DNA from: Dehalococcoidales bacterium
GTDB lineage: Bacteria; Chloroflexota; Dehalococcoidia; Dehalococcoidales; UBA2162
Assembly: GCA_016932435.1 (NCBI GenBank)
Contig: JAFGCW010000081.1
Coordinates: 1 to 26,544 of the forward strand
Direction of reading: 5' to 3'
DNA: 26,544 nucleotides
In this document: piece after piece, positions 5,758-8,494 of the stretch
How the letters are laid out: the number at the start of each line of letters is the position of its first letter
Position numbering within the stretch: position 1 is the first letter of the stretch
The notes under the pieces: model-generated
Seen by the model: only the letters and a program-made list of their open reading frames with translations
What the model was told of the DNA's origin: nothing
Database searches by the model: none
Program-made: the position numbers and the translations under genes

Positions 5758-5786
5758 TTGACAACAAGATGAAAAATCATTACAAT
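5758..5786 (+). promoter_or_regulatory. Strong sigma-70-type promoter upstream of SBP2
   Basis: TTGACA (5758-5763), exactly 17 nt, TACAAT (5781-5786). Predicted start is near 5793. It is divergent from the ArsR operon promoter, with about 42 bp between the two -35 boxes. It reads into the structured leader and then SBP2. Confidence 0.75.
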
Positions 5787-5792
5787 GCGGCA

Positions 5793-5906
5793 TCCTCCTG
5801 TGAATATATGTTTACATCAACCTGTAATTTAAACCGGAGGTGAACAGAATGTTACAATTGGCACCGCCACTGTTGTTTTTTACCGCAGTTTCAGGTGCCC
5901 TTTTTT
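5793..5906 (+). ncRNA. Candidate structured leader RNA / attenuator of SBP2
   Basis: About 114 nt from the predicted start to the end of a T-run. It contains ACCT (5820-5823) that can pair with AGGT (5838-5841) and so mask the ribosome site of the small ORF at 5849. It ends in the GGCACC/GGTGCC terminator hairpin. Promoter, ribosome-site hairpin, short ORF and terminator occur in the same order as in the leader at 8366-8494. This is not a riboswitch class I recognise. It could be a stand-alone small RNA or an attenuator. Confidence 0.45.
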
Positions 5907-5965
5907 ATTGCAGGAAAAATTACATTAATAATTACCTCATCGGGGGAACCCATGGTAATGAATGA
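5849..5965 (+). CDS. 38-residue leader ORF (uncertain)
   Basis: This ORF of 38 codons starts with ATG 8 nt after GGAGG, within an excellent GGAGGTGA ribosome site, and ends TGA. Residues 4-20 are hydrophobic (LAPPLLFFTAVSGALFY), followed by a basic and Asn-rich tail, so it could encode a tiny single-span membrane peptide. It lies wholly inside the SBP2 leader and its codons run through the terminator hairpin at 5860-5906. Translation would therefore melt the hairpin, which suggests either a regulatory leader peptide or chance. I do not recognise a family. Confidence 0.4.
   Translation: MLQLAPPLLFFTAVSGALFYCRKNYINNYLIGGTHGNE
5860..5906 (+). terminator. Rho-independent terminator in the SBP2 leader
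   Basis: GGCACC (5860-5865) pairs with GGTGCC (5894-5899). An inner ACTG (5869-5872) pairs with CAGT (5886-5889). A C and six T (5901-5906) follow. It lies about 240 nt upstream of SBP2 and so would stop transcription before the gene. Confidence 0.6.
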
Positions 5966-6006
5966 CATAAGTTTATACCAGTTTTATATGGGTCACTCCC
6001 CTTTTA
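5943..6006 (+). terminator. Second hairpin in the SBP2 leader
   Basis: GGGGA plus ACCCAT (5943-5953) pair with ATGGGT (5988-5993) and TCCCC (5997-6001), with a 3-nt bulge on the 3' side and a 34-nt loop. TTTTATATA follows. It is a weaker terminator candidate or a structural element. The rest of the 6007-6146 stretch holds a GGAGGTGATG site opening a 7-codon ORF (6060-6083) and the true SBP2 ribosome site. Confidence 0.35.
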
Positions 6007-6146
6007 TATATGAAGCGCTGGAAATAATCGGGTAGTCATGATATCGGAGAAAGGAGGTGATGCTGCATAAGAACAAGATGTAGTCTCGCGTGCACGTTTG
6101 TGTTCGCATGATGGAAAACCTGAGTTATTACAGGAGGGAAAACCAT

Positions 6147-8033
6147 ATGATTAAAAAGATTATGTGGATACTCGTGAGCTGCTTGATGGTATTATCTTTG
6201 ATATTGGCATCATGCGGCACAACGGAGACCACAGGTGATGTAGAAGAGGATGAGGGTGATGATAAAGTCATTATCACGGAAACCGAGACAGACACCGGGA
6301 CAACAGATGAGGAAGAAGGGACAACCTCATCAGATGAACCACAATACGGCGGCACTATTACTATCCGAGACATTTCCGAACCGACATGCTGTGATAGTTT
6401 TGCCAACAAGATGATGACCGGAGGCCCCGTTATACTTTATGTTTACGAACAGCTTCTAGCATTCGACTGGGAGCGAGGTCCTGCCGGCACTGGTGAATTT
6501 ACCAATAATGCTGTAGCCAGTCCTGAAGCTCAGATGTACGGAGAGCTGGTTGAGAGTGTAGAGAAACCAGATCCGGAAACATGGATACTCAAAATAAGGC
6601 AGGGAGTACACTATCAGGATACCGGTACCGCAGCCGGGAACTTAGTGGGCGGTCGTGAGATGACAGCCGAGGACGTCGCCTGGGCTTATGAAAGGAATGT
6701 CCACAGTCCCGATGGAGCGATACAGGTGTTGCAGCCGCGTTGTGCCGCGGCATTTGAGATCGAGCAGACCGGTCCGTGGGAAGTGACCTTCACGACACCG
6801 GTACAGCCGATCACAGCCCAGTGGTGGGTGATTGAAGGCGGTGGCTATGGTTTCATGTATCCACCTGAACTCGTTGAGACCTACGGCAGCATTAACGGCT
6901 GGGAAAATAGTGTGGGCACAGGTCCCTGGATCCTTGAGGATTGGGTCACCGCTACATCGATTTCTTACAGACGCAATCCAAACTACTGGGGCGTTAATCC
7001 TGTTGGTCCCGGTAAGGGCGATCAACTGCCTTACGCGGACAAAGTGAAAAGGCTGATCATACCTGATAGTTCAACCGCTCTTGCAGCACTTCGTACCGGC
7101 AGGATCGACATGTACGGTGCTGTTACCTATGATATAGCCGAAGAATTATGGCGCAGCGCGCCCGATTTGGAATACCTGGAATATCTCGGTTCGGGATTCG
7201 CCGAAGCTCACGCCTTCAATTTACGACTCGACGACCCGACCAAACCATGGACTCGGACTGAAAACGGCAAGAAGGTACGCCAGGCGCTGATGCTGGCTGT
7301 TGACTATGATACCATTGTCAATGACTATTTCAGCGGCAAAGCAACAAAGGATACGGTCCTGGTTAACGAAAACTTTAAGGGAGTGGGCTTTGTACCGCTG
7401 AGCTCGATGTCACAATCGGTCCAGGATCTTTACAGCTATAATCCTGAAAAGGCAAAACAGCTTCTCTCAGAGGCTGGATATCCTGATGGCTTCAAAACTG
7501 AAGTGCTGGTGCCCAGTGCTCCGACGGATATGGCAGACCAGGCCTCTATCGTTAAGAACTATTGGGCTGATATAGGCGTTGAAATGGATATTGTTCCCAT
7601 TGAAGGGACCATGCTTACACCTATGGTCACTCGTTCTTTCGAGTGGAATGATATGTTCTACGGAACCTTCCAGGGTGGTACCGTGGGATCGTTCGGATTC
7701 TCTCTCTATACGTACCTGGGCTACTACCGGGGTGATAACCGACCTCAGTTTGCCAGCCGTACCGATCCGGATGGGGATCCAGACCCATTTATTGAGGAAA
7801 ACTTCGCGACGATGATGGAGAATATCTACGTTAACTGGCCGGCTGCCTATAAAGCCGTTGAGAATATCAAACCGTACCTGATAGAAAATGCTTTCAAGAT
7901 ACCGTTCCCGCAGCCCTACTCCTACCAATTCTGGTGGCCCTGGATGAAGAATACCTACGGCCAAGGAGCAGTTGGAACCTTCCTGAAATATTACTGGGTA
8001 GACGAGGACCTGAAGAGGGAAATGGGTTACTAA
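6147..8033 (+). CDS. ABC transporter substrate-binding lipoprotein (SBP family 5), paralogue 2
   Basis: This is a 628-residue lipid-anchored solute-binding protein of the SBP_bac_5 family. The frame is open from 6090, but the ATG at 6147 is chosen because CAGGAGGG precedes it and it places a normal signal peptide first (lipobox LASC, C23). A very acidic Glu/Asp/Thr linker spans about residues 28-66. The domain follows: YGGTITI, EMTAEDVAWAYERN, VRQALMLAVDYDTIVNDY and NPEKAKQLLSEAGYPDGFKT. The C-terminus WWPWMKN...DEDLKREMGY mirrors the other two paralogues. The leader of about 350 nt carries a promoter, a small ORF and terminator-like hairpins, so expression is probably attenuated. The ligand is unknown; peptides or other amphiphilic organics are typical of the family. 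Confidence 0.93.
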   Translation: MIKKIMWILVSCLMVLSLILASCGTTETTGDVEEDEGDDKVIITETETDTGTTDEEEGTTSSDEPQYGGTITIRDISEPTCCDSFANKMMTGGPVILYVYEQLLAFDWERGPAGTGEFTNNAVASPEAQMYGELVESVEKPDPETWILKIRQGVHYQDTGTAAGNLVGGREMTAEDVAWAYERNVHSPDGAIQVLQPRCAAAFEIEQTGPWEVTFTTPVQPITAQWWVIEGGGYGFMYPPELVETYGSINGWENSVGTGPWILEDWVTATSISYRRNPNYWGVNPVGPGKGDQLPYADKVKRLIIPDSSTALAALRTGRIDMYGAVTYDIAEELWRSAPDLEYLEYLGSGFAEAHAFNLRLDDPTKPWTRTENGKKVRQALMLAVDYDTIVNDYFSGKATKDTVLVNENFKGVGFVPLSSMSQSVQDLYSYNPEKAKQLLSEAGYPDGFKTEVLVPSAPTDMADQASIVKNYWADIGVEMDIVPIEGTMLTPMVTRSFEWNDMFYGTFQGGTVGSFGFSLYTYLGYYRGDNRPQFASRTDPDGDPDPFIEENFATMMENIYVNWPAAYKAVENIKPYLIENAFKIPFPQPYSYQFWWPWMKNTYGQGAVGTFLKYYWVDEDLKREMGY

Positions 8034-8088
8034 ACAGGTGTTTACATACTGATTAAATCATTATGAAATGCAGAAAAAGGAGCAAACT

Positions 8089-8229
8089 TTGGAAGCGTAT
8101 TGTGTAAAGTGCCGTGCCAAGAAGGAAATGAAAGACGCTAAAGCCATAACCATGAAAAACGGTAAACCCGCGACACAGGGCGTCTGCCCGTCGTGCGGTA
8201 CCAGGATGTTCCGAATTGGCAAAGGCTAG
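8089..8229 (+). CDS. DUF5679-like mini zinc-ribbon protein
   Basis: This is a 46-residue protein starting with TTG, 6-7 nt after AAAAAGGAG. An in-frame ATG at 8068 would add seven residues but has no ribosome site. Two cysteine pairs, CVKC near the N-terminus and CPSC at residues 33-36, frame a basic core (KKEMKDAKAITMKNGKPATQ) and would bind one zinc. This matches the DUF5679 family of very small proteins as I remember it, including the MEAYCVKC opening and the R-M-F-R-I-G-K ending. Function is unknown; basic charge plus a zinc ribbon would suit nucleic acid or ribosome binding. It lies 55 nt after SBP2 and before a hairpin, so it is probably co-transcribed with it. Confidence 0.82.
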   Translation: MEAYCVKCRAKKEMKDAKAITMKNGKPATQGVCPSCGTRMFRIGKG

Positions 8230-8259
8230 ATTTTCGTAATTAATACTTGCTTGATATTA

Positions 8260-8295
8260 AGGGCTGGATACAACTGAAGAAGTATATCCAGCCCT
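8260..8295 (+). terminator. Terminator-like hairpin after SBP2-DUF5679
   Basis: AGGGCTGGATA (8260-8270) pairs perfectly with TATCCAGCCCT (8285-8295), 11 bp with a 14-nt loop. CACTTATAT follows, so there is no true T-run. Confidence 0.55.
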
Positions 8296-8330
8296 CACTT
8301 ATATCAATGTATACTTTATTTGTTGTGAAG

Positions 8331-8359
8331 TTGACAAGTTTAGCATCGTATACTATAGT
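8331..8359 (+). promoter_or_regulatory. Strong sigma-70-type promoter upstream of the SBP3 leader
   Basis: TTGACA (8331-8336), exactly 17 nt, TATAGT (8354-8359). Predicted start is near 8366, 275 nt before the SBP3 ATG. Confidence 0.75.
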
Positions 8360-8365
8360 AATCCA

Positions 8366-8494
8366 AAATCTATTAAACAAGTGAATTTACCTTATTTAGC
8401 TTGCACCTTCCTGTTCTAGAGGTGAATATGGTGAGCTTAGGCTAAATAGGCACCTATAATCGTAGTTGAATGCGGTTGACGGTGCCTTTTTTTT
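8366..8494 (+). ncRNA. Candidate structured leader RNA / attenuator of SBP3
   Basis: About 129 nt from the predicted start to the end of an eight-T run. A 10-bp stem joins 8391-8400 to 8441-8450 (CTTATTTAGC with GCTAAATAGG). Inside it CACCT (8404-8408) pairs with AGGTG (8420-8424), which is also the ribosome site of a five-codon ORF (ATG 8428, stop TAA 8443-8445). The terminator hairpin begins 4 nt later. It resembles the SBP2 leader in order of parts and in GTTG...GC(A/G)GTT...GGTGCC just before the T-run. It is either an attenuator or an independent small RNA. Confidence 0.5.
8449..8494 (+). terminator. Rho-independent terminator in the SBP3 leader
   Basis: GGCACC (8449-8454) and GGTGCC (8481-8486) close a 26-nt loop, and eight T follow at 8487-8494. 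The stem's first two bases also belong to the upstream 10-bp stem, so the two structures compete slightly. Confidence 0.7.

Follow-up and report, generated by a model that had tools for sequence, protein, structure and literature searches.

A recurrent family of predicted leader RNAs combining promoter-like site, translation start and terminator-like hairpin in Dehalococcoidales genomes

In erm-type resistance leaders with short upstream open reading frames (uORFs), the position of the ribosome decides which hairpin forms, and stalling depends on the drug. Here, a leader RNA family is described for which a decision on the hairpin by ribosome position is likewise proposed, whereas drug-dependent stalling and service to resistance genes are particular to the erm type. 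The starting point was a stretch of 26,544 nucleotides (nt) from a Dehalococcoidales bacterium (contig JAFGCW010000081.1, positions 1 to 26,544; referred to as the window), in which leader 1 and leader 2 precede SBP2 and SBP3, two genes for lipoproteins of the SBP_bac_5 family of solute-binding proteins (SBPs). Among described candidates, the fthC motif of Streptococcus (uORFC-39-1) consists, in the part of the survey that presents it, of a Shine–Dalgarno (SD)-like stretch, a putative uORF AUG and then a hairpin of terminator character, and this SD-AUG-terminator layout is common to both (PMC11109978). As far as that part describes it, the fthC motif has one gene context, three hairpins and a stop codon often located in its P2, whereas the present family precedes many targets and its uORFs are not conserved. 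The rdhA motif (WRC-34-1) has, according to its entry in the same survey, 18 representatives, mostly from Dehalococcoides, upstream of reductive dehalogenase genes (PMC11109978). It is likewise a candidate structured leader from the same bacterial group; unlike it, the present family is multi-copy and precedes diverse genes, the two being set apart by that description and not by sequence (PMC11109978). For the toiL uORF of Escherichia coli topAI, the sections consulted state that ribosome stalling, in one heading also at the start codon, alters downstream expression (PMC12121999). A ribosome on the uORF changing downstream expression would be the shared feature, but toiL is described there as acting on a ribosome-binding site with Rho-dependent termination, whereas the present family carries an intrinsic-terminator-like hairpin (PMC12121999). 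A word search of the main texts of PMC2965389 and PMC2864571 gave no mention of Dehalococcoides, and the leader family was not found described in the titles and abstract openings searched, which cover few of the subscription journals.

Both leaders of the window show the same order of parts (Table 1). The original prediction had assigned to each a TTGACA-17-TANNNT promoter, an SD site with ATG and a GGCACC...GGTGCC stem followed by a T run, and all of these parts are present where it had placed them. SD plus ATG span 5836-5851 in leader 1 and 8418-8430 in leader 2, and the stem of the terminator-like hairpin, P2, is formed by GGCACC at 5860-5865 with GGTGCC at 5894-5899 (leader 1) and by GGCACC at 8449-8454 with GGTGCC at 8481-8486 (leader 2). 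Both TTGACA promoter-like sites lie 30-150 nt ahead of the P2 arm. They were the top two of 27 sigma-70-like sites in positions 1-14000, a region without a general excess of such sites (24.2 expected), and the only sites scoring at least 11/12 on either strand of the whole window. A hairpin with T run 50-170 nt 3' of a leader promoter was observed for both, and no such promoter-terminator pair arose in 300 shuffles within 1-kb blocks; pure chance was dropped as the origin of the leader signature. A general terminator scan with loops of 3-8 gave 11 sites vs 11.5 expected, with both leader hairpins absent from its list. The whole leaders folded better than shuffles (z of -2.96 for leader 1 and -2.62 for leader 2), whereas leaders without the complete terminator folded no better than shuffles (z of -0.22 and -1.15). 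Thus, the window alone backs the terminators, not upstream structure. The predicted transcripts of 114 and 129 nt presuppose starts near 5793 and 8366.

Table 1. Positions of the leaders, their parts and the genes that follow them in the window.
Feature	Position	Strand	Basis
Promoter-like site of leader 1, TTGACA-17-TACAAT	5758..5786	+	score 11/12, promoter scan
Leader 1, weak family member (probable)	5787..5909	+	covariance-model matches R1, R2, R3
SD-like GGAGGTG, leader 1	5836..5842	+	sequence
Short open reading frame of leader 1, 38 codons, extending through the terminator	5849..5965	+	sequence
Terminator-like hairpin P2 and T run, leader 1	5860..5906	+	
Second conserved element, diverged copy on the SBP2 side of leader 1, SD at its end	5912..6073	+	
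SBP2, SBP_bac_5 lipoprotein	6147..8033	+	E 3.8e-53
Promoter-like site of leader 2, TTGACA-17-TATAGT	8331..8359	+	score 11/12, promoter scan
Leader 2, strong family member	8360..8497	+	covariance-model matches R1, R3
Anti-SD CACCTTC, P1 5' strand, leader 2	8404..8410	+	alignment; weak from sequence alone
SD-like AGAGGTG, P1 3' strand, leader 2	8418..8424	+	sequence, alignment
uORF MVSLG of leader 2, 5 codons	8428..8445	+	sequence
Terminator-like hairpin P2 and T run, leader 2	8449..8494	+	
SBP3, SBP_bac_5 lipoprotein	8642..10444	+	E 1.7e-51

SBP2 and SBP3 share 33% identity. Their closest proteins in protein searches included some labelled Dehalococcoidales, and an order-wide protein search pointed to genome G484, which holds relatives of SBP2 (81%) and SBP3 (93%); the order is the one whose records include Dehalococcoidales titles and comprises 156 genomes. 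Three leader alignments were used: A3 (10 leaders), A5 (24 leaders, 23 of them from G484) and A7 (the wider set). Upstream of 23 SBP genes inspected in G484, an A5 leader was present in 14 cases, with the layout TTGACA-17-TATACT or similar, TTTACCATCTT..CACCTTC, GGAGGTGAATATGATGAG, GGCACC...GGTGCC and a T run. Homologous leaders ahead of other SBP genes, on which the original prediction had made its conserved cis-acting RNA family depend, therefore exist. Close relatives of leader 2 (L128 and L204, on contig C42) sit ahead of other SBPs, so that leader and gene can separate, and leaders and coding regions seem to reassort (G484:C162 and G484:C42; L124, L128, L204, L215).

Membership was assessed with three covariance models. 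R1 and R2 had leader 2 in their training sets, and R3 was trained without any window sequence, on two G484 leaders and 24 members of a 28-leader set (L231, L234, L238 and L241 being left out). This set comprises 27 R2 matches from the order with loci and L247 of genome G360; L239 and L245, without recognisable leader, had been removed beforehand, and L246 and L237 denote one place. Leader 2 matched R1 at 8388-8496 with 82.1 bits (E 1.1e-15, as a member of its training set) and gave the best R3 match in the window (E 1.5e-4). Leader 1 matched R1 at 5806-5909 (E 0.05, or 0.17 in a larger search), R2 at 5807-5909 (E 0.0041) and R3 at 5824-5909 (E 0.035, ranking second in the window). These E-values are approximate, and chance presumably accounts for some of the matches around 0.1; a third R3 match in the window, at 12995-13046 (E 0.082), lies within an open reading frame (ORF). 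Leader 2 clearly belongs to a recurrent leader family, and leader 1 probably does. Rfam 15, riboswitches and T-box included, gave no match in the window at E ≤ 1; in eight loci it gave nine matches up to E 10, all under the gathering scores, and in 13 further loci tRNA only. T-box and known riboswitches were dropped, no Rfam family having reached its threshold, in agreement with the earlier statement that the leaders were not recognised as a known riboswitch class.

The family was then followed across genomes. R1 matched 3 of the 12 genomes of G484's family at E ≤ 1; G484 itself gave 32 matches on both strands, the antisense ones reflecting the palindromic terminator, and G478 and G002 gave E of 0.05-0.3. 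R2 matched 31/156 genomes of the order at E ≤ 0.1, with 24 matches in G484, and 7/393 genomes of a class sample at E ≤ 0.02, six of which were also on the order list (G225 was not). From the R2 matches, a wider leader form emerged with the terminator AAGGGCACTGGAAYCGCT...GCGGTGGCTGGTGCCCTTTTT. R3 matched 28 of 40 hand-chosen genomes at E ≤ 0.001, namely all 22 earlier positives, six of 12 order genomes without R2 match and none of six class-draw genomes (G007-G011, G013). Over the order, with stricter filters, 56/156 genomes were matched at E ≤ 1e-5, with up to 29 matches per genome. At E ≤ 0.001, R3 gave 31 matches in G470, 10 in G417 and 12 in G427; in each of the latter two genomes, the matches seen are confined to a single long contig (1.03 and 2.30 Mb, respectively), which suits a regulon map. 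Strong R3 matches in G225 (E 1.4e-13) and G360 (E 3.1e-19; leaders L247, L248 and L308 in these two genomes) are missing from the order's list, and the family thus extends beyond the order, outside which R3 covered selected genomes and its range is undersampled. Three R3 matches were found in G004, which holds locus L005 of Dehalococcoidales bacterium isolate bin896. An R3 match in G001 lies 93 nt upstream of an SBP match start; the link to SBP genes is thus not limited to G484. The leader is a recurrent family, not an oddity of two paralogues.

Simpler searches were also run. A DNA pattern occurred in 4/12 genomes of G484's family (G484:C80 ahead of an SBP gene; G478:C74 also an R3 match), and a strict DNA pattern scan of the class sample gave 2/393, the pattern being too strict to be informative. 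The exact GGCACC-GGTGCC-T signature was present in none of the 80 loci, many of them distant, listed by an SBP-based contig scan, and no SBP2 relative was found in the class sample (0/393 at E ≤ 1e-140) among the matches listed, with at most three candidates scored per genome. The R2 match in G441 (E 7.7e-10) lies ahead of an HPRT/adenine-deaminase-like gene pair. By analogy, a leader was sought ahead of the window's own HPRT gene; none was evident by eye, and no model matched there.

An independent comparison came from the promoter, a region that no covariance model includes. An exact TTGACA-16..18-TANNNT site 30-150 nt ahead of the P2 arm was present in 17/24 A5 leaders and in 22/28 of the wider set (22/30 if L239 and L245 are counted), compared with means of 0.14 and 0.09, respectively, in Markov-shuffled sequence and with 8/1802 and 16/2418 other windows of the same loci. 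For 40 R3 matches unused by any model, hand-picked among the matches listed for the 40-genome search, the exact promoter was found in 32 and, allowing one mismatch, in 34, compared with 12/1385 control windows.

With a promoter-like site and a terminator-like hairpin of its own, each leader could also be a stand-alone small RNA gene of about 115-135 nt acting in trans, and a duplicated small RNA had indeed been considered in the original prediction. This is improbable, because a same-strand ORF closely follows: 18/23 of the G484 A5 leaders lie directly ahead of an SBP_bac_5-type gene on the same strand, and an ORF on the same strand begins within 150 nt in 24/28 order-set leaders and 33/40 unused R3 matches (counts without a chance control). 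Of the 18 SBP targets, 14 were identified by protein search; the targets of L204, L205 and L207 had Pfam E-values of 1.9e-52 to 2.4e-55 and 7.1e-46, and that of L210, cut by the contig end, had E 4.5e-5, below the Pfam cut-off. The other five G484 targets are a permease operon, a GNAT gene, a GYD-domain gene, a SnoaL gene followed by an MFS transporter gene and an ORF without Pfam match. In other genomes, first genes encode collagen-repeat lipoproteins, an FAD oxidoreductase, a phosphoribosyltransferase, DUF2330, Ldh_2, PAS proteins, a papain-like protease and one SBP, and several have no Pfam match. No common theme was found among these targets. A bias towards lipoproteins was not supported, with 5/25 and 4/34 first ORFs vs 30/180 of all ORFs in these loci, the targets being part of this background. 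A role in solute uptake, as proposed at first, does not fit leaders that precede many unrelated genes in many genomes; a generic promoter-leader-terminator module is the better reading.

The RNAalifold consensus of A3 contains two hairpins. P1 joins anti-SD and SD, with an outer helix that extends to the start-codon region, and P2 is the terminator; on A5, only the inner P1 and the basal P2 were obtained. Paired cells amounted to 86.8% in A3 and 87.9% in A5, compared with 39-51% and 37-53% after sliding, and for P2 in A7 to 93.8% compared with 37.5-73.3%. The P2 terminator stem covaries, as the original prediction had expected of its stems: all nine pairs of the basal P2 helix in A5 changed on both sides. 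The number of doubly changed pairs in A5 was reached by 6/500 shuffles and the number of pair types by 38/500. P1 is conserved mainly in sequence, which is expected since one of its strands must remain an SD. The pairing of ACCT with AGGT that had been proposed for the window is backed by the 24 leaders of A5 as a group, in which the mean unpaired probability of the SD was 0.09 vs 0.24 with shuffled upstream sequences. At L211 (G484:C144:3436-3507, minus strand), P1 and the SD sit right at the beginning of a membrane-protein-like ORF of 94 aa, and a terminator is missing, so that P1 plus SD can serve as a translation start by itself. ANTAR antitermination employs two hairpins with hexanucleotide loops, the second of which overlaps the terminator arm. 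An ANTAR-type mechanism was rejected for the leaders, in which P1 and P2 do not overlap and, by eye, P1 loop lengths vary in A5.

In many genomes, the P2 sequence is kept beyond what pairing demands (GGCACTGGAAYCGCT...GCGGTGGCTGGTGCC), as might be expected if a protein or another trans-acting factor on conserved P2 or P1 set termination, the SD and AUG being incidental or part of the binding site. The many targets would be compatible with one global factor of this kind. We nevertheless regard such a factor as unlikely, given that SD and start codon are enriched at a fixed place, that in G484 P2 drifted while SD, AUG and anti-SD held constant, and that no Rfam family was found at threshold.

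An ATG 8-16 nt ahead of P2 was present in 18/24 A5 leaders and 18/28 of the wider set, compared with shuffled means of 4.5 and 5.6 and a highest shuffled value of 12. An SD together with ATG or GTG ahead of P2 was found in 18/24 and 11/28, respectively, compared with 0.56 and 1.16 in shuffled sequence. The uORFs range from 1 codon to more than 20 in varying frames, and ATG-NNN-TAA just ahead of P2 recurs. The translation start is conserved and the peptide is not. A short ORF upstream of a terminator-like hairpin is also what a classical leader-peptide attenuator with codon-specific stalling would display, but this is very improbable here, as uORF length, frame and codons are not conserved across the leaders and some uORFs are merely ATG-stop. 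With lengths so variable, occupancy rather than the peptide can matter. The terminator might, on the other hand, act as a fixed attenuator that just reduces or insulates expression driven by a strong promoter, without regulation. Near-uniform promoters, diverse targets, the lack of a ligand theme and the weak P1 of the window's own leaders would agree with this; it appears rather unlikely, since passive damping needs neither the enriched SD and start codon nor, in the G484 set, the anti-SD.

Leader 2, and probably leader 1, would thus represent an order-wide family of promoter, SD-start and terminator in which a ribosome on the start codon likely permits readthrough, a reading that we hold with middling confidence. 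Since P1 and P2 do not overlap, a switch requires a third party. The ribosome is the simplest one: its site is conserved and placed such that an initiation complex would reach into the P2 arm, and the peptide can vary freely. About 15 nt beyond the AUG are occupied by such a complex, and in most of the members examined the distance from start codon to P2 is 8-16 nt. A ribosome that lands on the leader SD/AUG just upstream of P2 would likely cover the 5' strand of P2 and so keep the hairpin from forming, and transcription would continue into the gene. In the relatives of the window's leaders (the 24-leader alignment), where the SD is, by prediction, largely paired with a conserved anti-SD (CACCUUC/GGAGGUG), this pairing likely tunes how easily the ribosome lands, and in the G484 group P1 would modulate initiation. 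The signal would then be translation-initiation capacity, not one metabolite. More tentatively, the leaders might constitute a global attenuation system in Dehalococcoidales and some neighbours, in which the state of free ribosomes or initiation, not a metabolite, sets how many of up to dozens of unrelated genes per genome, all behind this cassette, are transcribed.

Several observations weigh against regulation by the initiating ribosome or against the family assignment. First, concerning the window itself, the ATG of leader 1 lies 11 nt ahead of P2, but that of leader 2 lies 21 nt upstream, and the uORF of leader 2 also stops ahead of P2. The proposed SD pairing was weak in each of the two window leaders alone and did not exceed chance, with SD unpaired probabilities of 0.32 (leader 2) and 0.29 (leader 1) vs 0.26 and 0.23 with shuffled upstream sequences. 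Leader 1 is a weak match (E 0.004-0.17), and its relative L137 has, by eye, CTG where the ATG aligns. Second, concerning structure, P1 pairs changed on both sides number 1/11 in A5 and 0/11 in A3, P1 seems by eye to be missing or unclear in many order-wide members, and, not overlapping P2, it cannot switch P2 alone. P2 covariation is weaker in A7, where 75/500 shuffles reach the number of doubly changed cells and a slide of +3 still pairs 73.3%. Outside G484, P2 retains more of its sequence than pairing requires, and this might point to a bound factor. Third, concerning distribution, 9/23 SBP upstream regions of G484 have no A5 leader, including that of the 93% SBP3 relative (C162); the nine include L130, a tenfold weaker candidate, and L137, a degenerate relative of leader 1. 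In G479, no leader was seen by eye in 16 SBP upstream regions, and R3 matches were also absent. Among 52 leaders, one has no start codon in range and nine have only GTG or TTG.

A second, separate and conserved RNA-like element of about 130 nt was observed ahead of SBP genes. It consists of GGGGGAAACCAGGGTGCTGAGTG...CTCCCGTGTCCGGAGCCCTGGGGGTAATCGGG with a long basal stem GCTGGCCCTGC/GCAGGGCCGGC, followed by an SD. It occurs in seven G484 loci, in six of them 3' of an A5 leader (L081, L131, L134, L140, L143/L087 and L195/L210) and at C162 (L090/L124) where there is no leader. The window holds, besides the diverged copy (Table 1), a copy at 1-65 that is truncated at the edge of the window. In the loci scanned, no Rfam model matched the element at threshold, and it is a possible riboswitch candidate. 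Neighbouring genes comprise one for a small cysteine-containing DUF5679 protein between SBP2 and leader 2 (8089-8229, plus strand) and one for an ArsR-family regulator divergent from leader 1 (5296-5646, minus strand), which adjoins a DsrE-like gene (4751-5233) and nitrate-reductase-gamma and Fe-S genes.

Known attenuators mostly serve a single gene family and respond to a single signal. Here, one architecture occurs up to about 30 times per genome ahead of unrelated genes, with a conserved translation start and no conserved peptide. The host lineages are known mostly from metagenomes and gain a searchable signature of promoter and leader. If the family is regulated as proposed, it would couple transcription to translation capacity across the genome.

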